Shown piece after piece: positions 5,257 to 33,411 of a DNA stretch of 64,000 nucleotides (positions are counted from its first letter, which is position 1; each line of letters begins with the position of its first letter). This stretch comes from Streptomyces changanensis (lineage in GTDB: Bacteria > Actinomycetota > Actinomycetes > Streptomycetales > Streptomycetaceae). The stretch covers positions 868,001-932,000 of the forward strand of contig NZ_CP102332.1 of NCBI RefSeq assembly GCF_024600715.1, read 5' to 3'. A program made the position numbers and the translations under genes. The notes beneath the pieces are model-generated. The model was given only the letters and a program-made list of their open reading frames with translations, searched no databases and was not told where the DNA came from.

Positions 5257-5270
5257 CCCCAACAAATTGT

Positions 5271-5387
5271 TCGGCGGTGTCCTACTCTCCCACAGGGTCC
5301 CCCCTGCAGTACCATCGGCGCTGAAAGGCTTAGCTTCCGGGTTCGGAATGTAACCGGGCGTTTCCCTAACGCTATGACCACCGAAAC
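5271..5387 (-). rRNA. rrf: 5S ribosomal RNA
   Basis: The minus strand begins GTTTCGGTGGTCATAGCG and ends CACCGCCGAAC, the expected pairing ends of actinobacterial 5S RNA, with CCGAACCCGGAAGCTAAG in between. The length of about 117 nt is normal. Ends are set by family pattern and could be off by one or two bases. An 85-bp spacer separates it from 23S. Confidence 0.95.
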
Positions 5388-5472
5388 ACTATGAAGATAT
5401 CGACCTACAACCAACCGGCAGATTGGGAGTTCGTTACTTCAGAACTAACACAGTGGACGCGAGCAACTGAGG

Positions 5473-10420
<4,948 letters not shown>

Positions 10421-10813
10421 ATGCTTACCCGTGATCGGGTCGACACTCGCGTTGAGCGGAACCGGGGGGAGGAATAGTCCCCCGCGGTTCACAGCATCCT
10501 CGCTGTGTTTTCTACAAAGGAACCTCATCTCCGTGATGGAGACGGGGTATCAACTAATCTGGCGTTGATTTTTGGCACGCTGTTGAGTTCTCAAGGAACG
10601 GACGCTTCCTTTGTACTCACCCTCTCGGGCTTTCCTCCGGGCGCTTCCCTTCGGTCTTTCGTGTTTCCAGTCTAGCAGATCCGATTTCTCGTTTCCGCCA
10701 CCCGCTGGAGCGGGCTGCCGGGCCGTTCTCCGCTTTCGCGTTTCCCTTTCCGGCGGCTCCGACACTATCAGGGTTTTTCCGCCTCCCTGACCACTCCCCG
10801 ACCGACCACACGC
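10421..10813 (-). promoter_or_regulatory. rRNA operon leader and promoter region
   Basis: About 390 bp without a gene upstream of 16S. Near 10570-10600 the minus strand has GTTCCTTGAGAACTCAACAG, typical of the pre-16S leader. Farther upstream, hexamers resembling the vegetative -10 box occur on the minus strand, TAGACT (10674-10669) and TAGTGT (10767-10762), but good TTGACA partners are not evident. Streptomyces rrn operons usually have several promoters here. I support the region as the rrn promoter area but not single start sites. Confidence 0.6.
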
Positions 10814-19734: not shown

Positions 19735-20676
19735 ATGACAGGACGTGGTGTTCCCGTACGGTCCGTGGCCGCCGCCGTCGCCGGGGCGCTCGCCCTGGCC
19801 GCCGCTCCCGCCGCCCCGCCCCCGGCGCGGGCGGAGGCGGGGCCGGTGACGGGTCCGGCGTCGGCGTCGGCACGGGCGGGATCCGGGGCGGAACCCGTCG
19901 CGCCACGGGGGTTCGTGGCGCTGGCGGCGGTCGATCCGACCGTCCTGCACGACCTGCGCTACACGACCGCGCACAACTTCGTCGGCGAGCCGGTGGACGG
20001 GTACCGCCAGCCGCTGTGCCTGCTGACCCGGTCGGCGGCGCGGGCCCTGCACCGGGCGCAGACCCGGCTGCTGCGGCGGGGGTACTCGCTGAAGGTGTAC
20101 GACTGCTACCGCCCGCAGCGGGCCGTCGACCACTTCGCGCGGTGGGCGCGGGACCCGGACGACGAGCGGATGCGGGCGGAGTTCCACCCGCGCGTGGACA
20201 AGTCGCGGCTCTTCGCGGACGGGTACGTGGCGGAGCGATCGGGGCACAGCCGGGGGTCGACCGTCGACGTGACGCTGGTGCGGCTGCCGGCGGCGCCGAC
20301 CCGCCCGTACGTGCCGGGCGAGACGCTCGTGGACTGCGCGGCGCCGCGCGCGGAGCGGTTCCCGGACGCCTCGGTCGACATGGGGACGGGGTACGACTGC
20401 TTCGACACGCTGTCGCACACCGACGACCCGCGGGTCCAGGGGGCGCCGCGGCGCAACCGGGACGCGCTGCGCGAGGCGCTCGCGGCGGAGGGGTTCGTGA
20501 ACCTGCCGCAGGAGTGGTGGCACTTCACGTACCGGCCGGAGGACTTCCCCGACACGTACTTCGACTTCCCCGTGGCGTGGCGCTCGCTGACCGGCCGCCC
20601 GGGTGGGCCGTCCGCGCCCCGAGGGGACGCGGACGGCCGGGTCAGGTGGCGACCGGTTCCGGGGTCGGCTCGGTGA
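19735..20676 (+). CDS. D-alanyl-D-alanine dipeptidase, VanX family (M15D), secreted
   Basis: 313 residues from ATG 19735 (GTG 19729 also possible). A signal peptide with a basic start and an Ala-rich hydrophobic core (about 10-35) predicts export. The zinc site is SGHSRGSTVD (His171, Asp178) plus EWWHF (Glu260, His263), with the substrate arginine in CYRPQRA. The enzyme cleaves D-Ala-D-Ala. As a secreted chromosomal member far from vanHA genes it is more likely to act in peptidoglycan recycling than in glycopeptide resistance. The 3' end overlaps the convergent cvnD stop by 35 bp. The last 20 residues are low in complexity, as though the frame reads into the neighbour. Confidence 0.9.
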   Translation: MTGRGVPVRSVAAAVAGALALAAAPAAPPPARAEAGPVTGPASASARAGSGAEPVAPRGFVALAAVDPTVLHDLRYTTAHNFVGEPVDGYRQPLCLLTRSAARALHRAQTRLLRRGYSLKVYDCYRPQRAVDHFARWARDPDDERMRAEFHPRVDKSRLFADGYVAERSGHSRGSTVDVTLVRLPAAPTRPYVPGETLVDCAAPRAERFPDASVDMGTGYDCFDTLSHTDDPRVQGAPRRNRDALREALAAEGFVNLPQEWWHFTYRPEDFPDTYFDFPVAWRSLTGRPGGPSAPRGDADGRVRWRPVPGSAR

Positions 20677-21250
20677 AGGTCATCGCGTGCCTGACCACCG
20701 CGACGAGGACCTCCTTGACAGACTCGCGCCGCCGGGCGTCGCACATCAGCAGCGGTACGGCCGGGTCCAGGTCCAGCGCCGCGCGTACCGCCTCGACCGG
20801 ATGGAGGTCCGCGCCCTCGAAGCAGTTGACGGCGATGGCGAAGGGGATGCGCCGCCGCTCGAAGTAGTCGATGGCCGCGAAGGAGTCCTCCAGGCGGCGG
20901 GTGTCGACCAGGACCACCGCGCCGAGCGCGCCCTGCGCGAGCTCGTCCCAGAGGAACCAGAACCGGTCCTGGCCGGGCGTACCGAACAGGTACAGCACCA
21001 GGTCCTCGCGCAGGGTGATCCGCCCGAAGTCCATCGCGACCGTGGTCGTCGACTTGGACTCGACCCCGTCCAGGTCGTCGACCGGCCGGCTCGCCTCGGT
21101 GAGCTCCTCCTCGGTGCGCAGGGGCCGGATCTCGCTCACCGCCCCGACCAGCGTGGTCTTGCCGACGCCGAACCCGCCGGCGACCAGGATCTTCAACGTC
21201 ACCGGTTCGACCGGCGGCGGACCCTTGCGGCTAGAGCGCCCGAAGGCCAT
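20642..21250 (-). CDS. cvnD: Conservon GTPase CvnD
   Basis: 202 residues of the small Ras-like ATP/GTP-binding family. The P-loop is GGFGVGKTTLVGAV, the G3 motif is LYLFGTPGQDRFWFLW, and the G4 NKxD is changed to AVNCFEGAD, as in other conservon GTPases. The family partners with CvnA-C to form a membrane-linked switch resembling eukaryotic G-protein modules. It is the last gene of the cvnABCD operon and overlaps cvnC by 20 bp. No cvnE cytochrome P450 follows; the convergent VanX-like gene ends inside it. It controls development or secondary metabolism in studied cases, but this copy's target is not known. Confidence 0.93.
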   Translation of the reverse strand: MAFGRSSRKGPPPVEPVTLKILVAGGFGVGKTTLVGAVSEIRPLRTEEELTEASRPVDDLDGVESKSTTTVAMDFGRITLREDLVLYLFGTPGQDRFWFLWDELAQGALGAVVLVDTRRLEDSFAAIDYFERRRIPFAIAVNCFEGADLHPVEAVRAALDLDPAVPLLMCDARRRESVKEVLVAVVRHAMTFTEPTPEPVAT

Positions 21251-21656
21251 TGATCACCTCACGCAGAATGCTCACGTCCGGCAGCTCGGCCGGCGGAACG
21301 GGACGGGTTACGTGGACCAGCTCGTCCTCGACGAGGTCGCCGACCAGGACCCGGACCACCCCGACGGGCAGGTCCATCCCGGCGGCGAGTTCGGCGATCG
21401 ACTGCGGGAACTCGCTGCAGCGTTCGACGATCTCCACGTGTTCCGGGGAGAGCGTCTGGTCGCGGCCGGGGTCGTCGGCCGCGGGCTCCGGGACGACGAC
21501 CGCGATCAGGTCGAGCCGGTGGCGGCCGGCGGTCGCGGTCCGGCCGCGGGTCATCGCGTACGGGCGCACCACCGGACCGGCGTCGTCGTCGAACCAGTGG
21601 TGGGCGTCGCCGCCGTTGCGGTGGCGCCGCGCCTGTCGCGCCGCTGCGTCGCTCAT
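21231..21656 (-). CDS. cvnC: Conservon protein CvnC (DUF742)
   Basis: 141 residues from ATG 21656; a GTG at 21671 that overlaps the cvnB stop is an alternative. The N-terminus is charged and disordered (RRHRNGGDAHHWFDDD). The C-terminal DUF742 winged-helix-like domain shows VRPYAMTRGRT and PQSIAELAAGMDLPVGVVRVLV, then ends ILREVINGL like its homologues. DUF742 proteins bind the other conservon components. It sits between cvnB and cvnD with tight overlaps. Confidence 0.92.
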   Translation of the reverse strand: MSDAAARQARRHRNGGDAHHWFDDDAGPVVRPYAMTRGRTATAGRHRLDLIAVVVPEPAADDPGRDQTLSPEHVEIVERCSEFPQSIAELAAGMDLPVGVVRVLVGDLVEDELVHVTRPVPPAELPDVSILREVINGLRAL

Positions 21657-21667
21657 CGCATCCCGCC

Positions 21668-22096
21668 TCACCCTCCGGTGGGCAGGCCGGACCGGGGGGC
21701 GGTGGCGAGGTGGGCGCCCACGCGCTTGACCATGAGCGTCATCTCGTACGCGACGAGGCCCACGTCGGAGTCGGCGTCCGCGAGGACGGCGAGGCAGCTG
21801 CCGTCACCGGCGGCGGTGACGAAGAGGAACGCGTCCTCCAGTTCGACGACGGTCTGACGGACCTTGCCGGCCTCGAAGTGACGGCCGACTCCCTTGGCGA
21901 GGCTGTGGAAGCCGGAGGCGACGGCGGCCAGGTGCTCGCTGTCCTCGCGGCTGAGGTCCCGCGAGCCGCCCGTCGGCAGGCCGTCGCTGGAGAGCACCAG
22001 GGCCTTGCGAATGGAGCCGACCCGCTCGACCAGTTCGTCGAGGAGCCAGTTCAGCTCGCCGGTTGAGTTGGGTGTTGCGGCGTTCGGTGCGGTCAT
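21668..22096 (-). CDS. cvnB: Conservon roadblock/LC7 protein CvnB
   Basis: 142 residues, a single roadblock/LC7 domain. The N-terminal helix LNWLLDELVERVGSIRKALVLSSDGL and the FAVTAAGDGSCLAVLADAD-like strand pattern are typical. Such domains regulate small GTPases such as MglA and here CvnD. Its ATG overlaps the cvnA stop by 4 bp and its own stop overlaps the possible cvnC GTG, so the operon is translationally coupled. Confidence 0.93.
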   Translation of the reverse strand: MTAPNAATPNSTGELNWLLDELVERVGSIRKALVLSSDGLPTGGSRDLSREDSEHLAAVASGFHSLAKGVGRHFEAGKVRQTVVELEDAFLFVTAAGDGSCLAVLADADSDVGLVAYEMTLMVKRVGAHLATAPRSGLPTGG

Positions 22097-24879
22097 CGAC
22101 CGTCCCCCTCCGGTGTCGTTCCTGGTGCTGTCTCACTGCGGGCGCGCTGCCAGCCTCGCTGCATCGCGGCCATCCTTCGGCGTACGTCTTCGGCCTCCCG
22201 CTCCGCGTCCTCGGGGTCGGTGAGGCCGGGCGCGGGGGCGGGTGCGGCCGGGGCGGCGGACCGCTCGGCCTGGTCCCGCAGCTGCGGGACGAGGCTCGCC
22301 TGGCGGACCCGGCGGGGCAGGCCGCCGATCGTCGGGGCGGCCCCGCCCGGCGCGGGCGGTGCGGGTGCGGGTGCGGACGGGGTGCTGCCGTCGCGGTCCC
22401 CGGGGCTGTCGTCGGGGGTGCCGGCGCCGTGGCGGGCCCGGGTGGTGCCGTCGCGGTCCCGGCCGGCGCCGTCGCGGGCGTCATGGGCGTCGCGGGCGTG
22501 GCCCGACGGGTGTCGGTCGGCGCGGGCTTCGCCGGGCGTCTCGTCCGCCGCGGGGGCGGGGTGGGCGCGGGCGGCCGGGTCGTCGACGCGCCGGCCGTGC
22601 CGGGCCACCAGGGCCGGCCTGCGGCGGGGCAGCGGGATGGGTCCGGTGGGGCGGTCGTCGGACGCGTCGGCCACCTGCTGGTGCTGCTCGCCCGAGGGCG
22701 CGCCGGCGGGGCGCAGGGGCGGGCGGGGAGCGAAGAGGGCGTCGTCCGGGGCGCCCGTACGCCCGTCGCGGTCGCCGTCGCGGTGGCGGCGGTCGAGACC
22801 TTCCTGCAGGCCGGCCCGCAGTTCGTCGGAGAGGTCCCCGAGGAGGTCGAAGGGGCCCTCCAGCTCGACCGGCCCGTCCAGGGCCGAGGTCGTGTGCGGC
22901 AGGGCGGTGCGCCGTGCCGTGCCGCCCGTACCGCGGCGGTCGGGGGTCTTGCGGTCCAGCCGGAAGCCGGCGCCCTGCGTCTCGGGGGCGTCGGTGAGGA
23001 GCGCGGCCGGAAGGAAGACGACGGCGGTGGTGCCTCCGTACGGGGAGTGCTGCAGGGAGACGCGGACGTTCTGCCGCCGGGCGAGGCGGCTGACGACGAA
23101 CAGACCGAGTCGGTCGGTGTCGGAGAGCTCGAACTCGGGGGTCTCCGCGAGGCGGAGGTTCGCGTCGAGGAGGTCCTCGGGCGACATGCCGAGGCCCCGG
23201 TCGTGGATCTCCAGGGTGAAGCCGTTGGCGACGCGCTCGCCGAGCACCTGGACGGCGGTGTGGGGCGGGGAGAAGACGGTGGCGTTCTCGAGGAGTTCGG
23301 CGATGAGGTGGGTGAGGTCCGCGACGGCGGGACCGCCGACGCCGATGCGGGGCAGGCGCCGGACCTCGATCCGCTCGTAGTCCTCGACCTCCGCGACCGC
23401 GGCCCGGACGACGTCCATGAGCTGGACGGGCCGGCGCCACTGGCGGGAGGGGGCCGCGCCGGAGAGGATCACCAGGCCCTCGGCGTGGCGGCGCATGCGC
23501 GTGGTGAGGTGGTCGAGGCGGAAGAGGTCGGCGAGCTCCTCGGTGTCCTCGGTGCGCCGCTCCATCGTGTCGAGGAGGGTCAGCTGGCGGTGCAGGAGGA
23601 CCTGGTTGCGGCGGGCGAGGTTGACGAAGACCTCGGAGACGCCGCGGCGCATGTCGGCCTGCTTGACGGCGGCTTCGACGGCGGCGCGCTGAAGGGTGTT
23701 GAGGGCCTTGCCGACCTGACCGATCTCGTCCTTGTCGTACTCGAGCCGGGGAACCTCCGTCTCAACGTCGACCTGCTCGCCGGCGGCCAGACGGCGCATC
23801 ACGCTGGGCAGGCGGGCGCCGGAGACCTCCTGGGCCTCCTTGCGCAGCCGGGTCAGGTCGCGGACCAGCCCGCGGCCGACGCGTACGGAGACGATGACGG
23901 AGCACAGGACGGCGAGGAAGCCGAGGACGCCCGCGCCGCCGGCCTTGAGCAGGACGCCCTGCGCGGCGGGGCCGACGCGGTCCTGGTAGCGGTCGCCCGC
24001 CTCCCGGTTCTCGGTCGCCAGGCCGTCGAGGACGGCGCCGGCGGCCTCGGTCCACCGGGCGGTGTCCGTGGCGCGCGGGTCGTCGGTGGGGCCGCCGGAC
24101 ACGACCGACTCCTCGACCTCCCGCAGCGGCTGGCTCCGGGGGCCGTGCCAGAAGTGCCGGTAGACGTCGCGCTCGCTCTGCGGCAGGACTTCGAGGCTGA
24201 GCTCGTAGAACTGCCGGCGGCGGGCGACCAGGTCGGAGATCAGGCGGATCTCCTCCGCGGTGAGGCGGTTGCTGATGAGCGAGGAGACGACGAGGGCGTC
24301 CTCGCGGGCGAGCATCTCGCGGGCGCGGGTGAGGCCGACGAGAGCACGGCCCTGCTTCTCCATCTCGACGTTGTCGAGGGCGTTGAGGTGGACGAGGAAG
24401 GTGTAGCAGGGGTCGACGAGGCGGTTGTAGAACTCCAGCGCCTGGAGGCGACCGACGGCGCGGGTGTCGACGGAGCGGCGCAGGGTCGCCAGGCTGTCGA
24501 AGGCGGCGAGGAGCGAGTCGAGGCGCTGCGCGGCGTCGTCCTGCATGGCGCCGGTGACGCGGGGGTCGCGGGCGTTGGCGCGGATGACGGCGACGGTGCG
24601 GTCGGTCTCGGCGCGGTCGCGGCGCAGGGCGGTGAGGGCGTCGGCGGCGCGCGGGTCGGCGAGGTAGACGAGGCTCTGACGGCGTTCGCGCTGGATCACG
24701 CGGACGGTGTCCTCCAGCGGGTAGCCCACCTTCTGCATGATGTGGCCGACGTCGAGGAGGTGGCCCGCCTCACGGCCGGTGATGAAGGTCGCGAAGCCCC
24801 ACAGGCCGGTGAGGGACAGGAGGGGGACGAGCAGCAGCGCCACGATCTTCCTGCGGATCGACTTCCCGCGAAAGCCCAT
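22093..24879 (-). CDS. cvnA: Conservon sensor histidine-kinase-like protein CvnA
   Basis: 928 residues from ATG 24879 with GGGGGAGG just upstream. A first membrane helix (about 12-34) and a second (about 305-330) enclose an extracytoplasmic nitrate/nitrite-sensing-type domain. A HAMP segment (VGRGLVRDLTRLRKEAQEVSG), a helical dimerisation part with RLDHLTTRMRRHAEGL, and an HATPase domain with ELLENATVFSPP and DRGLGMSPEDL follow. The last 230 residues are low-complexity and rich in Pro, Arg and Asp. It should sense an outside signal and act on CvnB-D instead of a response regulator. It heads the operon; the 428-bp upstream space holds its promoter. Confidence 0.92.
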   Translation of the reverse strand: MGFRGKSIRRKIVALLLVPLLSLTGLWGFATFITGREAGHLLDVGHIMQKVGYPLEDTVRVIQRERRQSLVYLADPRAADALTALRRDRAETDRTVAVIRANARDPRVTGAMQDDAAQRLDSLLAAFDSLATLRRSVDTRAVGRLQALEFYNRLVDPCYTFLVHLNALDNVEMEKQGRALVGLTRAREMLAREDALVVSSLISNRLTAEEIRLISDLVARRRQFYELSLEVLPQSERDVYRHFWHGPRSQPLREVEESVVSGGPTDDPRATDTARWTEAAGAVLDGLATENREAGDRYQDRVGPAAQGVLLKAGGAGVLGFLAVLCSVIVSVRVGRGLVRDLTRLRKEAQEVSGARLPSVMRRLAAGEQVDVETEVPRLEYDKDEIGQVGKALNTLQRAAVEAAVKQADMRRGVSEVFVNLARRNQVLLHRQLTLLDTMERRTEDTEELADLFRLDHLTTRMRRHAEGLVILSGAAPSRQWRRPVQLMDVVRAAVAEVEDYERIEVRRLPRIGVGGPAVADLTHLIAELLENATVFSPPHTAVQVLGERVANGFTLEIHDRGLGMSPEDLLDANLRLAETPEFELSDTDRLGLFVVSRLARRQNVRVSLQHSPYGGTTAVVFLPAALLTDAPETQGAGFRLDRKTPDRRGTGGTARRTALPHTTSALDGPVELEGPFDLLGDLSDELRAGLQEGLDRRHRDGDRDGRTGAPDDALFAPRPPLRPAGAPSGEQHQQVADASDDRPTGPIPLPRRRPALVARHGRRVDDPAARAHPAPAADETPGEARADRHPSGHARDAHDARDGAGRDRDGTTRARHGAGTPDDSPGDRDGSTPSAPAPAPPAPGGAAPTIGGLPRRVRQASLVPQLRDQAERSAAPAAPAPAPGLTDPEDAEREAEDVRRRMAAMQRGWQRARSETAPGTTPEGDGR

Positions 24880-25307
24880 GGCCTCCCCCAGCCCGCCCGG
24901 CCGCCCGGCGCGGCACGGGGTGTACACATCAACGGAGCAGCAAACGGCGCGAGCCTACTACTGCCGCGCAGGGGACCCGAAGACGCGTCCGGACGTTTTT
25001 CGGCCGCCTCACGCGTTGTTGATCATGACTTGTCCCGGTATCCCCGCCATGCCGGGAGAACACTCGGGTCACCGGTGAATCCGGCTGTGGCGCATGACAC
25101 CTGGCGAGGCGTCAGTACCGTGCCGGTGGGGCGTCCGAGCGGAGCCGCTCCGGCCGGGATTCCGGATGGCTGGAATTGCTCCCTCCGGGAATCTTCCCGG
25201 GCCACCGGCCGTCTTCCTGTACGGGGGGCGGCGGTCCGATCGGCGTAGAACGGTCCACAAGGGGCAGCCACCCTGGTACGGGTATCTGTGGTGGGGAGTG
25301 ACGGTGG
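24880..25307. promoter_or_regulatory. Divergent intergenic region with a sigma-R-like promoter
   Basis: No gene is visible in these 428 bp between cvnA and the next plus-strand gene. On the plus strand GGGAAT (25187-25192) is followed after exactly 18 bases by GTC (25211-25213). This is close to the sigma-R consensus GGGAAT-N18-GTT but with a weaker -10. The predicted start would be about 90 bp before the 25308 ATG. The -35 box also forms part of a CCGGGAA-TC-TTCCCGG palindrome. Confidence 0.4.
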
Positions 25308-25754
25308 ATGAGCACGGGGCGTCATGAGCTTTGGGTGGAGGAGCCGGTCGGGCGGCGCAGGCTGCCGGATCCGGTACGGATAGTGGCGGTACGGGCCGGG
25401 ATCGTCACGTCGGTGGCGCTGATCCAGGCGATGGCCGCGTACCTGCTGACGGTCACGGGATCCTGGCTGGCGTTCCCGCTGGTGCTGACCAGTATCGGCA
25501 GCACGGTGGGGGCGACCTGGGCGGTCCTGGACGTCTGGGTGACGCGTCAGGTCTGGAAGCAGCGGTACGGGGTGGTCTCGGAACCGAGCAGCACGGCGCG
25601 GCAGCTGCGGCGCGAGCGGCGGTTGGCGAAGCGGGCCGCGCGGGAGGCCGCGCGCATACGGACGGCGCCCGCTCGGACCGCGGCACGTGGCGCGCAGGCC
25701 CCGCCGGGCGGGCACGCCCCGCAGCCGGCACCGGGCGAGCTGTCCCGGGCCTGA
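25308..25754 (+). CDS. Small membrane protein of unknown function
   Basis: 148 residues from ATG 25308. Two hydrophobic segments (about 26-46 and 52-74) are joined by a short turn and followed by WVTRQVWKQRYGV. A strongly basic Arg/Ala-rich cytoplasmic tail (about 95-125) and a Pro/Ala-rich end follow. I do not recognise the family, but the pattern of two helices plus basic tail is common in Streptomyces envelope proteins. A sigma-R-like site upstream hints at redox control. The 229 bp after it are GC-rich with no gene. Confidence 0.75.
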   Translation: MSTGRHELWVEEPVGRRRLPDPVRIVAVRAGIVTSVALIQAMAAYLLTVTGSWLAFPLVLTSIGSTVGATWAVLDVWVTRQVWKQRYGVVSEPSSTARQLRRERRLAKRAAREAARIRTAPARTAARGAQAPPGGHAPQPAPGELSRA

Positions 25755-25983: not shown

Positions 25984-28900
25984 TCAGCCCGCCGTCGGCT
26001 GACGCTCCGCCGGGGGCTGCCCCTCCGCCAGGGGCCGCTCGGACCTCGGCCGCTCGGACGTCGGCCGCTCGGCGGACGGTCGCTCCGTCGGCTGGCTCCG
26101 GCGGAACATGCGGGTCGCGGTGATCTCGCCGTGGACGGCCGGCTCCCCCTCCTGGGCGGGTTGCGGCAGCCCCGGCCGCAGGTGCTCCTCGACGCTGATG
26201 TACTTCAACCCCGCCCGCAGGTCGGCATCGTTGCGCAACCTGATCACCAGCGGGAACTCCGCGAGCGCCGTCGTGTCGAAGAGGCCCGTCGTGTACAGGA
26301 GCTGCACGCCGAGCGCGTCCGACACGGCCCGCTGGAGCTCCAGCAGGTAGGTGGCGTTGGCGCGGCCGATGGGGTTGTCGAGGAAGAGCGTGCCGGCGTG
26401 CCGGTGCTTGTCCCGGCCCCGGTCGTTGCTGCGCAGCGCCGCCATCGTGCAGTACAGGGCGATGGCGGCGGTCAGGAGCTGGCCGCCGGAGAAGACGTCA
26501 CCCATCTGACCGACCGGGACGCGCTCGGCGCGGAGCACCGCGTCGGGCTTGAGGATCTCCACGGCGACGCCCCGGGGCTGCAGGGCCGCGTGGACGCCGC
26601 GCAGGAGCAGCGACATGCCGTCGCGCCGGAGGTCGGAGTTCTTCTTGACGGCGGCGCGGGTGGCCTCGTCGATGACCTCCCCGAGCCGCTCGACGAGGGT
26701 CGCCTGGTCGGGCTCCTCGAAGCGGATGCGGAGGAACTCCTGCCCGGACCACTCGCCGAGGCCCTCGGGCAGTCGGGAGAGGCGCTGGGCGGAGCGGAGC
26801 GTGGTGAGCGCGGACTCGACCAGGCCGCGCAGCCGGTCGACGATCGACTCGCGGTTGCGCTCCAGCTGGGCCAGCTCGTCGGTGAGGACGCGCAGGCGCG
26901 GCGCGAACGCCTCGGCCCAGCGGGCGGCGTGCTCGGGCAGCGCGGCCGCCGGCAGCTCCCTGATCTGCTGCCGGGCGGGGGTGCGCACCTGCTCGTAGCG
27001 GGTGGAGTTGGCGTGCCGTACGAGGACGTCACAGGCCTCGCGCACGGCTGAGTCGGCAGCGGACAGGTCGGCGGCGCAGCCGCGCAGGGAACGGCGGGCC
27101 TCGGCGGCGGCCTGGCGGGCTTCCTCCAGGGAGCCCGCGTGGGGCTGGGGCTCCCGCGGGTCGTCGTCCGCGTGCTCGCGCAGCTGGTCGCGCAGGAGGG
27201 CGGCCAGCTCGTCGAAGCCGCCCGCGGCGTCCTCGGCGGCGCGGTGCGCCCGCAGGAGGTGGGCGTGCGTGGCGCGGGCCGCCTCCAGGGCGTCGGTGCG
27301 CGCGGCGAGTTCGCCGGTGGCCGTGCGCAGCAGCGTCTGGGCCTGCTCGGCGTCGGCGGGGACCAGCTCGTCGGGCAGCTCGGTGTGCGCTTCGCCGTCG
27401 GTGGGGGCGAGCCGTTCGGCCTCGCCGCGCAGCCGGCCCAGCTTCTCGCTGGCCTCGGAGGCGCGGGTCTCCAGCAGCTGCACCAGCGACTCGGCGCGGG
27501 CGGCGGCGGCCTGCCGGGAGGGGCCGTCGGCGCCGTCCGGGCTGTCCAGCAGCTGCGCGGCGCGGGTGCGGACCTTGTTGGTGAGCCGGTCGAGCTCGGC
27601 GAGGGCGGCGCTCTCGTCGCTCTCCGCGCGGGCCTGCTCGGCGCGCAGGTCGGCGCCGACGCCCACCTTCTCGTACAGCTGCGACGCGGCGCGGTACGCC
27701 TCGCGGAGCGCCGGCAGGGAGGGGCGCGGCACGCCGCCGTCGAGGAGGTCGGTGCCGTCGGGCTTCTCCTCGGGGACGTTCTCCGGGGCGCCGGCGATCT
27801 CGGCGCGTTCGGCGCGCAGGGCGCGGGCGGTGCGGTGGGCGTCGTCGGCGGCGCGCTGGGCGGCGCGGCGGTCCTCGTCGGCGGCGCGGGCGCGCTCCAG
27901 GCACGTCTGGGCCCTGGCCTCGGCCTCGGCGGCCTCGTCGGCGAGTTCACGCAGGCGGGACTGCCAGCCGGCCCGTTCACGGAGCCGGAAGGCGAGACCG
28001 GCGAGGGCGTCGGCGACGCGGCGGGCACGCTGGGCGGCGTCCTGCCGTTCGTCGCGGACGCGGGCGGTCTCGGCGGCGGTCTCGTCGGCCTCCGCGCGGG
28101 CGGCACGGGCCTCGGCGAGGACCGCCTGCGCGGTCTCGGCCGCTTCGCGGGCGGCTTCGGCGGCCCCGGCCAGCTCGGCGAGCATGCCGGGCGGGCAGTC
28201 GGCGCGCCACGAGCCGACGCGGGCGGCGAGCGAGCGGTCACCGGCGAGGCGGGCCGCGAGACCGCGGATCTCCTCGTCGCGGGCGGCGGCACGGGCGCGC
28301 AGGGCCTGGCGCTCCTCGTCGGCGGCGTGCTCGTCGTGCATGGCCGGGTTCGGCGGGATGAGGAACACCTCGCCGTCGTCGTCCGACGGCTGCCGGGGTA
28401 CGGGCGCGAGCAGCGCGGCGGCGGTGCCGACGGCGACGGCGGAGCGGGGCAGGAGGGCGGCGCCGGCGAGGGCCTCGCGGGCGCGGGCGTACGACTGGGG
28501 GTCGGTGACGACGACGCCGTCGACCAGTTCGGGGCGGGCGGCGAGGACGGCGGCGTGGTCGGCCGGGTCGACGGACTGGGCCAGGTAGCGCCAGCCGGGG
28601 AGGGCGGGGACGCCCTGCTCGCCGAGGAACTCGACGGTGGCCAGGACGTCGGGGCCGGGCGGCAGGAGGCCGCCGTCGCCGAGGGCTCCGAGGATCCGCG
28701 CGTCGTCGGCCGCGGCGGTGCGCAGGTCGAAGAGCTTGCGCTCGCCCGAGGCGATGTTGTGGTCGAGGAGCTCGCGCAATTCGTCGGCGTACCGGTCGAG
28801 CTCCTCGGCGGTCAGGGGGCCCTGGCCGGCGCGGGGCGCGGCGGCGCTCGCGCCGGGCCGCTGCCCGGTGGCGACGCCGGCGTCCCCGCCGGTGGCCGCG

Positions 28901-30819
28901 CCGGCGGTCCCGCCGTTGTGCTCACCGGTGCTGCCGCCGGTGTTCTGGCGGGGTACGCGGGCGGTCCTGCGGGCGGCGGGCAGGCTGAGCAGCTCGGCGA
29001 GGCGCTCCTCGGCGGCGATGGACTCGGCGGCGCGCCGCTCGGCCTCGTGGGCGTGGTCGGCGGCTTGGGCGGCGTCGGCGGCGCGGGCGGCGGCCAGCTC
29101 GGCGCGGGACTCGTCGGCGGCGGCCTCCCGCGCGCGGTCCGCGGCGAGGCGGGCGGCCTCGCGGGCGGTGTCCCAGGCGGCGACGGCGGTCTTCTCGGCG
29201 TCGGCGGCGGCGAGGGCGGCGCGTGCGGGGTCGGCGTCGGGGGCCGTGTCGTCGAGCCAGCCCGCCCGTACGGCCTCGGCGGTCTCCTGCTCCACCTCGG
29301 CGAGCCGCTGGCGCAGGTGGCCGGCCTCGCTGCGGGCGCGCTGCGCCTCGGTGGCGGCGGAGGTGGCGTCGCGGTGGGCGGTCTCGCCGGCCTCCTGGAG
29401 GGCGGCGGAACGCTCCTCCTGCTCGTCGGCGTGGCGCTCGCCCTCCGTCGCGGCGGCCTGGAGGGCGCGGACGAGGTCGGAGGCGGCCTTGGCGCGGGCG
29501 GCGAGGGCCGGTGCGGCGTCCCGCTCCGCCTCCTGGATGGCGACCGCCACGCGCGCGGAGCGGTCGGCCGCGGCGCGGTGGCGCAGGACGGCCTCGGTGG
29601 CCTGCCAGGCGGCGTGCAGGGTGCGGGCGTCGGTGAGTTCGCGGCGCTGGGCGGCGGCGCCCTTCTCGGCGGCGGCGAGCGCCAGGGACGCGTGGCGGTA
29701 GGCGAGTTCGGCGGCGACGAGGGAGCTGCGGGCGCGGGCCTGCTCGGCGTCGGTGACGGTGTGCGCGGCGGCGGTCACCTGCTCGGCGAGCTCGGCGGTG
29801 CGCACCCGTTCCTCGCCGGCGCGGGCGGTCAGGCGGCGCGCCAGGGCGCGGGTGCGGCGCTCGGCGGCGGCGTGGACGTCGCGGGCGCGGGCGCGGGTGT
29901 CGGCGGCGTCGACGATGCGGCCGAGGAGGTCGACGGAGCCGGCGGTGAAGTCGCGTTCCGCGGTGAGTTCGGCGCGGCGGCCGAGCTTGCCGCCGAAGCC
30001 GCTGACGAGGTCGGCGAGGCCGTCGGTGTCGCGGGTGTCGGTGACGGCGCGCAGCAGGAGGTCGGTGAAGTCGGAGTCCTTCTTCACCGCGAAGAGGCCG
30101 GCCGCCTCACCCTCGTCGGCGTTCATCTCGCGCTGGTAGCGGAAGAGTTCCGGGTCGAGGCCGAGGTCGCCGAGGTGTTCGTTCCAGCGGTCGTGGATCT
30201 CCTCCCAGTACACCTCCAGGTGCGGGTACGCCTTGCCGGCCTCCGTGAGGGCGTCGCGGAAGCCCTTCATGGTGCGGCGGCGGCCCTGCGCGCCGGAGGC
30301 GCCCTCGCCGTGCGCGCGGACGGCGGTGGACTCGGCGACGGGGAGGTTGTCGAGGCTGAGGCCGGGGCCGGGACGGAAGGAGTACCACGCCTCGGCGAAC
30401 TTGCGCGGGTCGTTGGAGACCTGGCGGCCGCGCCACTCGCTGACCTTGCCGACGACGACGAGTTCACCGGTGAGGGTGTGCTGCCACTCCAGGGCGACGT
30501 GTCCGCAGTCGTCGGCGAGGAGGAACTTGCGCAGGACGCCGGAGCTGGCGCCGCCGAGGGTGTTGCGGTGGCCGGGGAGCATCACCGAGAAGATCAGCTT
30601 GAGGAGGACGGACTTGCCGCCGCCGTTTTCCAGGAAGAGCACGCCGGCGGGGGCGGGCCGGCGGGGCGGCCCGACCGGTTCGTCCTCGAAGAACTCCGCC
30701 TGGGTGGGGGCGGGCCGGGGCACGGGCTCGCCCACTCCGCGCAGGTCCAGGACGGTGTCGGCGTAGCGGGCACCGGCGGGTCCGATGGAGTAGAGGCGGA
30801 CCCGGGACAGCTCGTACAT
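25984..30819 (-). CDS. SMC-like ATPase of a JetABC/MksFEB-type complex (JetC/MksB)
   Basis: 1,611 residues from ATG 30819. The head N-terminus has a Walker A in FLENGGGKSVLLKLIF (K69), and the head C-terminus has the signature DVFSGGQ (1441-1447) and Walker B GTLFLDNPIG. Between lie two very long Ala/Arg/Glu coiled-coil arms (about 300-640 and 880-1330) around a globular hinge-like part (about 700-870, LLDHNIASGERKLFDL to EVFLIPPNP). This is the SMC/MukB/Rad50 plan. The Walker B residue after Asp1481 is Asn1482, not the usual catalytic Glu. The tail has SERP/AERP repeats. It follows the JetB-like gene by 110 bp. Family knowledge: such ATPases extrude DNA loops in condensin-like or plasmid-restricting (Wadjet) complexes. 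No JetD/MksG nuclease follows. Confidence 0.85.
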   Translation of the reverse strand: MYELSRVRLYSIGPAGARYADTVLDLRGVGEPVPRPAPTQAEFFEDEPVGPPRRPAPAGVLFLENGGGKSVLLKLIFSVMLPGHRNTLGGASSGVLRKFLLADDCGHVALEWQHTLTGELVVVGKVSEWRGRQVSNDPRKFAEAWYSFRPGPGLSLDNLPVAESTAVRAHGEGASGAQGRRRTMKGFRDALTEAGKAYPHLEVYWEEIHDRWNEHLGDLGLDPELFRYQREMNADEGEAAGLFAVKKDSDFTDLLLRAVTDTRDTDGLADLVSGFGGKLGRRAELTAERDFTAGSVDLLGRIVDAADTRARARDVHAAAERRTRALARRLTARAGEERVRTAELAEQVTAAAHTVTDAEQARARSSLVAAELAYRHASLALAAAEKGAAAQRRELTDARTLHAAWQATEAVLRHRAAADRSARVAVAIQEAERDAAPALAARAKAASDLVRALQAAATEGERHADEQEERSAALQEAGETAHRDATSAATEAQRARSEAGHLRQRLAEVEQETAEAVRAGWLDDTAPDADPARAALAAADAEKTAVAAWDTAREAARLAADRAREAAADESRAELAAARAADAAQAADHAHEAERRAAESIAAEERLAELLSLPAARRTARVPRQNTGGSTGEHNGGTAGAATGGDAGVATGQRPGASAAAPRAGQGPLTAEELDRYADELRELLDHNIASGERKLFDLRTAAADDARILGALGDGGLLPPGPDVLATVEFLGEQGVPALPGWRYLAQSVDPADHAAVLAARPELVDGVVVTDPQSYARAREALAGAALLPRSAVAVGTAAALLAPVPRQPSDDDGEVFLIPPNPAMHDEHAADEERQALRARAAARDEEIRGLAARLAGDRSLAARVGSWRADCPPGMLAELAGAAEAAREAAETAQAVLAEARAARAEADETAAETARVRDERQDAAQRARRVADALAGLAFRLRERAGWQSRLRELADEAAEAEARAQTCLERARAADEDRRAAQRAADDAHRTARALRAERAEIAGAPENVPEEKPDGTDLLDGGVPRPSLPALREAYRAASQLYEKVGVGADLRAEQARAESDESAALAELDRLTNKVRTRAAQLLDSPDGADGPSRQAAAARAESLVQLLETRASEASEKLGRLRGEAERLAPTDGEAHTELPDELVPADAEQAQTLLRTATGELAARTDALEAARATHAHLLRAHRAAEDAAGGFDELAALLRDQLREHADDDPREPQPHAGSLEEARQAAAEARRSLRGCAADLSAADSAVREACDVLVRHANSTRYEQVRTPARQQIRELPAAALPEHAARWAEAFAPRLRVLTDELAQLERNRESIVDRLRGLVESALTTLRSAQRLSRLPEGLGEWSGQEFLRIRFEEPDQATLVERLGEVIDEATRAAVKKNSDLRRDGMSLLLRGVHAALQPRGVAVEILKPDAVLRAERVPVGQMGDVFSGGQLLTAAIALYCTMAALRSNDRGRDKHRHAGTLFLDNPIGRANATYLLELQRAVSDALGVQLLYTTGLFDTTALAEFPLVIRLRNDADLRAGLKYISVEEHLRPGLPQPAQEGEPAVHGEITATRMFRRSQPTERPSAERPTSERPRSERPLAEGQPPAERQPTAG

Positions 30820-30929
30820 GGCGGCGGACTCTCGTCGGTGGTTCGGAGGGGTGGGGCGTCGGGACGCCGATGGCGGAATGCCGGTGGCGGGGGCGCCGTC
30901 GGCGGGGCCGGGGCGCGGGTCGGGGGCGG

Positions 30930-31841
30930 TCAGCCGTGGAACGGGAGGCCCGCGTCCGCGGCCAGTTCCAGGTCGTCGCCGTCGGGCGGGGGCAGGAGGG
31001 AGGCGGTCCCGTCGGTGACGGGGACGACGCCCAGGTCCAGCAGTTCGGCCATGGCGGCGCTGCCGGCCATGTCGCGGACCTGCAGCTGGAAGCGGGCCGT
31101 CGTGCGGTAGGCGCCCCCCGCGTCGTCCCCGGTGCGCTGGAGGAAGCCGGAGTCGGTGAGGAAGGCGACGGCCTTGCCGATGATGCCGGTGGTGGAGCCG
31201 GCGAGGCGCCGGGCGTCCTTGGTGGCGCCGGTGGCGCTGCGGCGCGTGTAGGTGCGCCAGGCGGCCTCCAGGCCGGGGGCGGCGGAGGCGGGGTCGGTGT
31301 TCTCGCCCTCCCGCTCGGCACGCTCCTCCAGGCGGCGGCACGCCTGGCGGACGAAGGCGTCGACGCCGTTGACGGTGATGCGGCCGATGTAGCCGTCGTC
31401 GGCGAGGTCCTCGGGCCGGGGGAAGGCCATGGCGGCGATGGCCAGGTGGGCGAGGCCGTGCAGGAAGCGGTCGGCGGAGTCGGCGGAGGCCCGGCGGGCG
31501 TAGTCGCCCATGCGGACGGCGAAGACGGAGTCCTCACCGGCGGTGACGGCCATGCCCGCGCGTGGGGAGACCTCCAGGACGACGAGGCCGAGGCCGGTGG
31601 CGACGGCGTCGGCGAGCCGGGCGAAGGGCGGGTCCTCGCGGTAGCGGCGGAGCAGTTCGGCGTACTCGGCGTCGCGGGCCGGGAGCAGCCTGGGCTGGAG
31701 GCCGAAGGAGACGAGCCGCGCGGCGTCGGCGGCGTCGGCCGGCGTGACGCCGCCCGACGCCGCCGGCGGGGCGGGCACGGCGGCCTGCCCGGCGTCCGAC
31801 TCGCTCCACGCGTCGGTGTGCTCGGCGTGGTGGTCGCTCAC
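30930..31841 (-). CDS. MksE/JetB-like subunit of the SMC-like complex
   Basis: 303 residues from GTG 31841, with GAGGAG 8 bp upstream. An acidic, Ala/Pro-rich leader (1-35) is followed by an all-helical and winged-helix-like body: ARLVSFGLQPRLLPARDAEYAELLRRY, FLHGLAHLAIAAMAFPRP, and a C-terminal half with STTGIIGKAVAFLTDSGFLQ. No catalytic motif or membrane segment is visible. The place between a kleisin-like gene and an SMC-like gene, the size and the winged-helix look fit the KITE-type partner (MksE/JetB). The assignment is by position and fold impression and needs structure comparison. It starts 43 bp after the kleisin-like gene. Confidence 0.72.
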   Translation of the reverse strand: MSDHHAEHTDAWSESDAGQAAVPAPPAASGGVTPADAADAARLVSFGLQPRLLPARDAEYAELLRRYREDPPFARLADAVATGLGLVVLEVSPRAGMAVTAGEDSVFAVRMGDYARRASADSADRFLHGLAHLAIAAMAFPRPEDLADDGYIGRITVNGVDAFVRQACRRLEERAEREGENTDPASAAPGLEAAWRTYTRRSATGATKDARRLAGSTTGIIGKAVAFLTDSGFLQRTGDDAGGAYRTTARFQLQVRDMAGSAAMAELLDLGVVPVTDGTASLLPPPDGDDLELAADAGLPFHG

Positions 31842-31884
31842 GGCTGGTGCTCCTCGGTGCTGCTGGTGGTCGCGGTCATGCGGG

Positions 31885-33411
31885 CTACGTGCGGTCGGCG
31901 GCCATGCCGGCCGCGTCGAGCAGGGCGGTGCCGACGATGAGGTCCGCGCCGCCGAACTCGGGGTCGTCGAGCTGCGTGCCGTCGTCGACGGCGAACAGGA
32001 GGCGCTCCTCGCCCTGGCGGTAGGCGGTGCCGACCGGGGGGCTCGCCGCGTGCACCGCGAGGAGGGCGACCAGGTAGGGCAGGTCGGGGTCCTTCCGGCG
32101 GGCCTCGGCGAGGAGCCCGGAGAGCCGGCGGGGCGCGTCGTGCTCCAGGTCGAGCAGCGCCATGGCCGTCTCGAGCTGTTCCTCGCTGAAGCGGCTGTCG
32201 TCGGGGGTGGCGATCAGATCCGGCTCGGGCATCTCCGCGCCGAGGTGCTCGCGCTCCGCGGGCGGGGTGAGGAGGAGGTCGACGAGGTCGCCGAGGCGTA
32301 CGGAGCCGGGGGTGCGCAGGCCCGTGCCGCGGGCGAAGTAGGCGTCGGTGACGCGGCCGGCCTGCTCCAGCGGGAGCGGCAGCAGGGGGGCGAGGAGCTG
32401 TCCGTACAGGTCGAGACCGGTCCGGGCGGCGGGCTGGGCGAAGGCCTGGCGGTCCTGCTCGGCGCGGAAGAGGGGCCCCGCCTCCAGAAGACGCGACTGG
32501 AGCTGCGTGTGGCGGCGGATGCAGTCCTTGACGATGTCGACGAGCTCGGCGGCGCGCCGCTTGTGCTCGGGCTCCTCCGCCTCGTCGCGGGCCTTGCGGA
32601 TGTTGGTGAGGATCGCGTTCTCGTGGCGGTAGCGGTCCGCGACGTGGTCCAGCGCCTCGTCGATCATGTCGGGGACCGTCTTGAGCCAGTCGACCGCGCG
32701 GACGTTGCGCCGGGTGGCCTCCAGGGTCTTGCGGAGGGTCTCGGCGTACTGCACGGTGCGGTACCGGGCCTGCTCGGCGGCGAGCTGGGCGTCGGCGAGC
32801 CGGCCCCGGCTGATCAGCACCTCCAGCTTGACCTCGGCGGCGATCTGGGCGCTGGTGACGTCGGTGTCGAGGGCGCCGACCAGGACGTTGACGGCTTCGT
32901 CGGTGGTGCGGAGGTAGACGTTGCCGCCGTACCCGGGCACCTCCTCGATGAGCTTGAAGTCGTAGTCCCGGCGGACGTAGACGCCGTCGACGCCGAAGGT
33001 GCCGTAGACGGCGCGGAAGCCGCGATCGACACTGCCGACGTTGATGAGGTTCTCCAGGACCCAGCGGGCGACGCGCTCGTGTTCGGCGGCCGGGCGGTGC
33101 GGGGCCTGGGCGGCGACGCGGGGCAGCAGACGGGCGACGATCTGCTCGTGGTCGGCGCCCGTGTCGAAGTCCATGTTGAGCGTGACGAGGTCGATCGCCG
33201 CGAGGGCGACCTCCGCCATGGCGTAGACCGAGTACTCGCCCGCCAGGTTCGCCTTGCGGGCGTCCAGGTCGTGCAGGGGCGCGGTGCAGGCGAGCGCGCG
33301 CAGGCGCCGCGCCAGCCCTTCGTCGGCGGCCGGGCCCTGCGCGGGCCGCGGCCCCGCGCTGAGCTGGGGCGGAACGAGTTCCGTCGGTTCCGTCGGGGCA
33401 GGCGAAGTCAC
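31885..33411 (-). CDS. Kleisin-like subunit of the SMC-like complex (MksF/JetA type)
   Basis: 508 residues from GTG 33411. The frame stays open far upstream through the GntR gene, but codon use and homology-like sequence begin here; no good ribosome site is seen, so a leaderless start is possible. The N-terminal winged-helix-like part (ANLAGEYSVYAMAEVALAAIDLV) is followed by a body with YGGNVYLRTTDEAVNVL and helices reading RTVQYAETLRKTLEATRRNV, then HENAILTNIRKARDEAEEPE. This order resembles JetA/MksF kleisins that bridge the SMC heads. It is the first gene of the three-gene operon. The call rests on gene order and pattern. Confidence 0.72.
   Translation of the reverse strand: MTSPAPTEPTELVPPQLSAGPRPAQGPAADEGLARRLRALACTAPLHDLDARKANLAGEYSVYAMAEVALAAIDLVTLNMDFDTGADHEQIVARLLPRVAAQAPHRPAAEHERVARWVLENLINVGSVDRGFRAVYGTFGVDGVYVRRDYDFKLIEEVPGYGGNVYLRTTDEAVNVLVGALDTDVTSAQIAAEVKLEVLISRGRLADAQLAAEQARYRTVQYAETLRKTLEATRRNVRAVDWLKTVPDMIDEALDHVADRYRHENAILTNIRKARDEAEEPEHKRRAAELVDIVKDCIRRHTQLQSRLLEAGPLFRAEQDRQAFAQPAARTGLDLYGQLLAPLLPLPLEQAGRVTDAYFARGTGLRTPGSVRLGDLVDLLLTPPAEREHLGAEMPEPDLIATPDDSRFSEEQLETAMALLDLEHDAPRRLSGLLAEARRKDPDLPYLVALLAVHAASPPVGTAYRQGEERLLFAVDDGTQLDDPEFGGADLIVGTALLDAAGMAADRT

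Follow-up and report, generated by a model that had tools for sequence, protein, structure and literature searches.

A type III Wadjet JetABC set without the JetD nuclease, core in Streptomycetaceae by sequence, is a candidate second condensin-like complex

The window studied here, a stretch of 64,000 nucleotides of Streptomyces changanensis (C1:868001-932000 of a 6.9-Mb genome in two contigs), contains three adjacent genes which, judged from their sequences, are the JetA-JetB-JetC set of a type III Wadjet system, with no JetD Toprim nuclease in the operon. According to a review, Wadjet probably uses loop extrusion by JetABC to recognize circular DNA, which JetD then cuts (PMC10586767). On balance, the set is probably a Wadjet III descendant that has no nuclease and has been retained alongside SMC as a second condensin-like complex that does not cut DNA. 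This reading is based on the family identity of the three genes, the absence of JetD, the near-universal presence of the set in Streptomycetaceae, and the analogy with a nuclease-less complex of Pseudomonas aeruginosa.

The jetA-like kleisin gene (31885-33411, minus strand, 508 aa) is followed after 43 bp by the jetB-like KITE gene (30930-31841, minus strand, 303 aa) and, after a further 110 bp, by the jetC-like SMC ATPase gene (25984-30819, minus strand, 1,611 aa), in agreement with the original prediction of three same-strand genes in the order A-B-C, the last encoding 1,611 residues. All three are predicted by a codon-position gene caller, and coding is supported by codon-position GC, by 80-92% identity to the syntenic core genes of the other genomes fetched from the genus and by the low substitution-rate ratios given below. 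The nearest JetA among the named loci (the best 80 of 582 relatives, a biased sample) is that of Streptomyces roseolilacinus (L174, 96%). JetA matches the PADLOC model JetA3 (PDLC00567; E 5e-190, 631 bits), and JetC matches JetC3 (PDLC00588; E 0, 1,394 bits). JetB by itself has no PADLOC match; it is 54% identical to the JetB of a complete JetABCD locus (L063), and an alignment of 41 JetB relatives contains 16 that match JetB3 (PDLC00573; best E 6e-6), 12 that weakly match LmuC (best E 0.004) and seven that match DUF6063 (best E 4.5e-5). The predicted fold of JetA, comprising an N-terminal mixed helix/strand part, a long helical middle and a C-terminal helix/strand part, resembles MukF entries, and that of JetB matches JetB and MukE entries over its length, both with moderate confidence. 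The profile matches and folds uphold the JetABC/MksFEB-like identity first proposed for these genes: a JetA3-family kleisin, a JetB3-family KITE protein and a JetC3-family ATPase were all found, and kleisin, KITE and SMC genes with no nuclease are also the composition of a nuclease-less MksBEF-like system. JetB and JetC had no counterpart in NCBIfam (for JetC at E up to 1), where the matches of JetA, like all those of the three proteins in Pfam, were weak and to unrelated families. Neither sequence nor profile searches against solved structures returned a relative, and hhalign comparison of JetA and JetB with their type I counterparts (two sequences each, with thin profiles) showed no similarity.

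The ATPase motifs of JetC were located in an alignment of 37 copies, 25 of them JetD-less, with Walker A within residues 61-78, the FSGGQ signature within residues 1441-1463 and the Walker B motif FLDNP within residues 1476-1496. All 37 copies share FSGGQ and the D-N pair of Walker B. Walker A reads ENGGGKS in 34, including all 25 JetD-less copies, and QNGGGKG in three JetD-bearing ones (L009, L010, L093). Because all three motifs are retained across the alignment, the window JetC is as intact as nuclease-linked JetC. Such intactness also speaks for a complex that is still anti-plasmid and does not cut, for example one that compacts, silences or mis-segregates incoming circular DNA, and the sequence relatives of the set do include JetABCD defence systems. 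Defence genes are usually patchy in distribution, whereas this set is near-universal, usually occupies a recurring locus and lies on shorter branches than most JetD-bearing copies, which makes an anti-plasmid role unlikely.

The gene called next after jetC, at the position expected for jetD, is a small conserved open reading frame on the plus strand (25308 or 25335 to 25754), as the original prediction had it. It is treated here as context outside the complex, and is present in 19 of 31 Streptomycetaceae core loci, in none of 11 loci of the family f18 and in none of 14 Pseudonocardiaceae loci. The whole genome, and so the window, contains no match to JetD_C (PF09983), DUF3322 (PF11795) or JetD3 (PDLC00594). 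Similarly, JetD was found within 3 kb downstream in none of the 53 assessable core loci whose JetA is more than 70% identical to that of the window (58 loci including the window, from two sources whose genomes may overlap; those with at least 1.3 kb downstream of jetC were counted as assessable). The absence of JetD is thus well supported, and the missing nuclease noted from the window alone extends to unlinked positions in the genome. Among the other 95 surveyed loci (L047 and L109 being the same locus), 32 have JetD, 54 have none, and nine are cut off.

Across 150 genomes of the genus, PF09983 matches 18 and PDLC00594 matches 21, with at least one of these models matching in 22 and neither in 128. 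Strong JetD3 matches (>150 bits) occur in 11 genomes, all of which have at least two JetA3 matches, and in all 11 JetD lies directly after the jetC of an accessory JetABC copy (L009, L010, L013, L015, L017, L019, L022, L095, L096, L097, L098). The pairing with a second JetABC is what would allow the core JetABC to borrow JetD in trans from accessory Wadjet systems, but 128 genomes match neither model while JetA3 is found in 147, which largely refutes this explanation; it was rejected as a general one and is very improbable. The suggestion in the original prediction of a nuclease encoded elsewhere is therefore not sustained for the JetD family. An unlinked nuclease of another family replacing JetD would be invisible to these searches, and is doubtful rather than refuted: the genome has no JetD-family gene by three models, and gene clustering of hand-chosen loci (31 Streptomycetaceae, 11 f18 and 14 Pseudonocardiaceae) left nothing beyond JetA, JetB and JetC shared across the three locus types, with which an unlinked, unrelated nuclease stays compatible. 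Since nothing else is shared, no linked replacement subunit is seen, and this candidate was rejected.

The remaining ten JetD3 matches in the genus genomes are weak (20-32 bits), and six of these loci (L100-L105) contained nothing at or above 50 bits against the type III JetA, JetB and JetC references. One of them, L102, matches type I JetABCD models, and its JetA matches solved JetA chains; JetABCD of another type is also present in some Streptomyces genomes (L102, L103). JetD-type genes are found near both chromosome ends in three genomes (G129 C1 at 34292 and 8497867; G049 C1 at 34320 and 10642375; G090 C1 at 15696 and 9222617), as if carried in terminal inverted repeats.

JetA3 is present in 147 of 150 Streptomyces genomes and in 120 of 121 Streptomycetaceae genomes, covering 17 of 17 genera; below E 1e-100 the counts are 146 and 119, respectively. 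The three negative genomes of the genus are 82%, 98% and 78% complete, and two of them are in more than 1,000 contigs. The fetched core loci represent 16 of the 17 genera, and where no locus was fetched a genome was taken to be core on its JetA3 score; core jetABC mostly occupies a syntenic, recurring position. By these sequence counts the set is core in Streptomycetaceae, consistent with the earlier placement of the window genes in core Streptomyces DNA rather than in a defence island. Broken reading frames occur in the core copies of G545 (L078), G603 (L085), G596 (L086, in a genome that is 76% complete) and G574 (L108), and could reflect either decay or sequencing error, which are indistinguishable here. 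Together with the absence of JetD, these frames are what a decaying relic of a defence system would predict. By contrast, the ratio of nonsynonymous to synonymous substitution rates (dN/dS) is 0.045-0.257 over five core pairs and all three genes, indicating purifying selection, though not clearly stronger than elsewhere (f18 pair, 0.133-0.358; Amycolatopsis pair, 0.042-0.103; four JetABCD pairs, 0.131-0.385). Such selection and the near-universal presence of the set contradict a relic, which is hardly credible.

In a wider set of 394 Actinomycetes genomes from 137 genera, 61 have a JetA3 match. The seven genera concerned are Streptomyces, four from f18, that of Prauserella isguenensis (G509), and one whose match is weak. 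In f18, JetA3 is found in 19 genomes, with at least one (G166) lacking a match; JetD is absent from 10 of 10 assessable f18 core copies and present in three other f18 copies (L059, L060, L063). Neighbours that we take to be TerD-like stand beside the f18 core copies in 8 of 11 loci. Among the named loci, the best 80 of 582 relatives, 74 are assessable; JetD is missing from all 20 Streptomycetaceae loci and is carried by 5 of the 47 from Pseudonocardiaceae and by 6 of the remaining 7. Pseudonocardiaceae jetABC is often upstream of gap and pgk, a position at which Tamaricihabitans carries JetD. In a number of Prauserella, Qaidamihabitans and Amycolatopsis loci (L111, L112, L116-L122, L124-L126, L132), the gene between jetC and gap resembles winged-helix AlkZ/YcaQ-like proteins. 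In Amycolatopsis rifamycinica, a JetD segment of about 1.08 kb (L135:16698-17780) follows jetC and is cleanly missing at the same place in six of seven relatives (L132, L136, L137, L138, L141, L143), the seventh (L134) having only a 30-bp match beyond the segment; either retention or re-gain would explain it. Sets without JetD are also found in Prauserella, Amycolatopsis and Pseudonocardia, genera described as having circular chromosomes, and the special link to linear chromosomes raised in the original prediction is weakened accordingly.

Trees were built from hand-picked loci, with 55 (first JetA), 37, 52 (wider JetA) and 48 (wider concatenated) rows. Broken loci were excluded throughout, the 37-, 52- and 48-row trees also omit the majority of the most divergent copies with JetD, and the cut-off copies L065 and L094 were counted as JetD-bearing in the first. 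The number of JetD-state changes is three (two forced) in the first JetA tree, eight (seven forced) in the wider JetA tree and seven in the wider concatenated tree, a quick tree without a mixture model. A single JetD-less clade of Streptomycetaceae, f18 and Prauserella was rejected on the concatenated tree by the approximately unbiased (AU) test (p 1e-43), and one of Streptomycetaceae and f18 was borderline (p 0.049), both p values being weakened because the tested groups were named after the first tree had been seen. The wider JetA tree unites Streptomycetaceae and f18 (92/85), and their JetD-less state may have either one or two origins. The trees alone leave the direction of change unfixed; of the seven copies that diverge most under midpoint rooting, JetD is present in all but the cut-off L065, which argues for loss rather than gain. 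In Pseudonocardiaceae, JetD may have been regained by the nested copies that bear it (A. rifamycinica, Tamaricihabitans, P. ammonioxydans). The median lengths of JetB and JetC are 300 and 1,557 aa in Streptomycetaceae, 313.5 and 1,643.5 aa in f18, and 265.5 and 1,487 aa in JetD-bearing copies; the mostly Pseudonocardiaceae JetD-less copies, at 266 and 1,485 aa, are not longer than the latter.

The proposed history is that an SMC-kleisin-KITE complex was derived from type III Wadjet by loss of JetD, probably before the Streptomycetaceae genera split. The complex has most likely kept the binding of ATP and DNA, together with DNA translocation or extrusion in the manner of Wadjet and MukBEF, and without JetD this extrusion would end without cleavage. 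We infer complex assembly, loop extrusion and a chromosomal target, and JetABC would now be a second housekeeping condensin-type complex beside SMC-ScpAB, the canonical SMC being encoded at a separate locus of the same genome (C1:4863555-4867397, 903 bits). The analogy with P. aeruginosa MksBEF, which probably arose from JetABCD by loss of JetD and contributes to chromosome organization (PMC10586767), makes this role the most likely one; a nuclease-less Wadjet descendant thus has a precedent, from which the type III parentage here differs. Against this role stands MksBEFG of Corynebacterium glutamicum, which has its nuclease and was found not to organize the chromosome (PMC7083940). The core count is not entirely clean, the sole JetA3 match of G121 being weak (E 1e-30) and that of G543 (E 5e-46) coming from L084, a divergent copy that carries JetD. 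A broader proposal, offered tentatively and at a little under an even chance, is that all or nearly all Streptomycetaceae have, next to SMC-ScpAB, another SMC complex with a housekeeping role, an anti-plasmid machine domesticated through the loss of its nuclease, that this loss has recurred several times in other actinomycetes, and that the route from Wadjet to condensin is recurrent, perhaps serving multi-genome hyphae or spore compaction.

Elsewhere in the window, a four-gene cluster on the minus strand (20642-24927), which we take to be of the conservon type, adjoins jetABC in many Streptomyces core loci. A complete ribosomal RNA operon (16S, 23S, 5S) on the minus strand at 5269-10421 accounts for a low-GC dip. 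JetA relatives are also encoded on three Streptomyces plasmids and one Rhodococcus plasmid, and a weak, partial match is found on a Polaromonas plasmid (NZ_CP107962, NZ_CP108614, NZ_CP107864, NZ_CP070616, NC_008759; each annotated as a hypothetical protein).

Hi-C has been applied to chromosome folding in Streptomyces, and three such papers discuss SMC(-ScpAB) as the condensin of this genus (PMC8410768, PMC8410849, PMC13121528). The main texts of all three lack the word 'Wadjet'; 'Mks' is absent from those of PMC8410768 and PMC8410849, and in PMC13121528 concerns M. smegmatis and its reference. Wadjet has been reported as enriched in Actinobacteria and towards Streptomyces chromosome ends (PMC10482375, whose main text does not contain 'JetD'); further background is given in PMC10123090 and PMC10512200. 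Among the papers listed by searches on JetD-less Wadjet or JetABC, and on Streptomyces Wadjet, Mks or a second condensin, in a scope that mostly excludes subscription journals, none describes the complex in its title or abstract opening. Present almost throughout the family, a second SMC complex would fill an obvious gap in the picture of chromosome folding. In addition, JetD is repeatedly present at some orthologous loci and absent at others, with a clean case among close Amycolatopsis species; this variation is a natural experiment on the turning of a DNA-sensing immune machine into a chromosome organizer, or the reverse.

Among known systems, type III Wadjet shares with the window set strong JetA and JetC model matches, gene order, signature motif and Walker B, and differs in having JetD and in its sporadic occurrence, the window set being near-universal in its family. 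P. aeruginosa MksBEF likewise combines kleisin, KITE and SMC without a nuclease and is likely a JetD-less JetABCD descendant (PMC10586767), whereas the window complex is of type III parentage and core in Streptomycetaceae. The SMC-ScpAB complex has an SMC-type ATPase in the same genome, but is encoded at a separate locus, and the window JetC matches no NCBIfam model, SMC_prok_B included, at E up to 1. MukBEF has the kleisin-KITE-SMC gene order of the window set, and the JetA and JetB folds match MukF and MukE, respectively, although no Pfam match to the Muk families appears at E up to 1.

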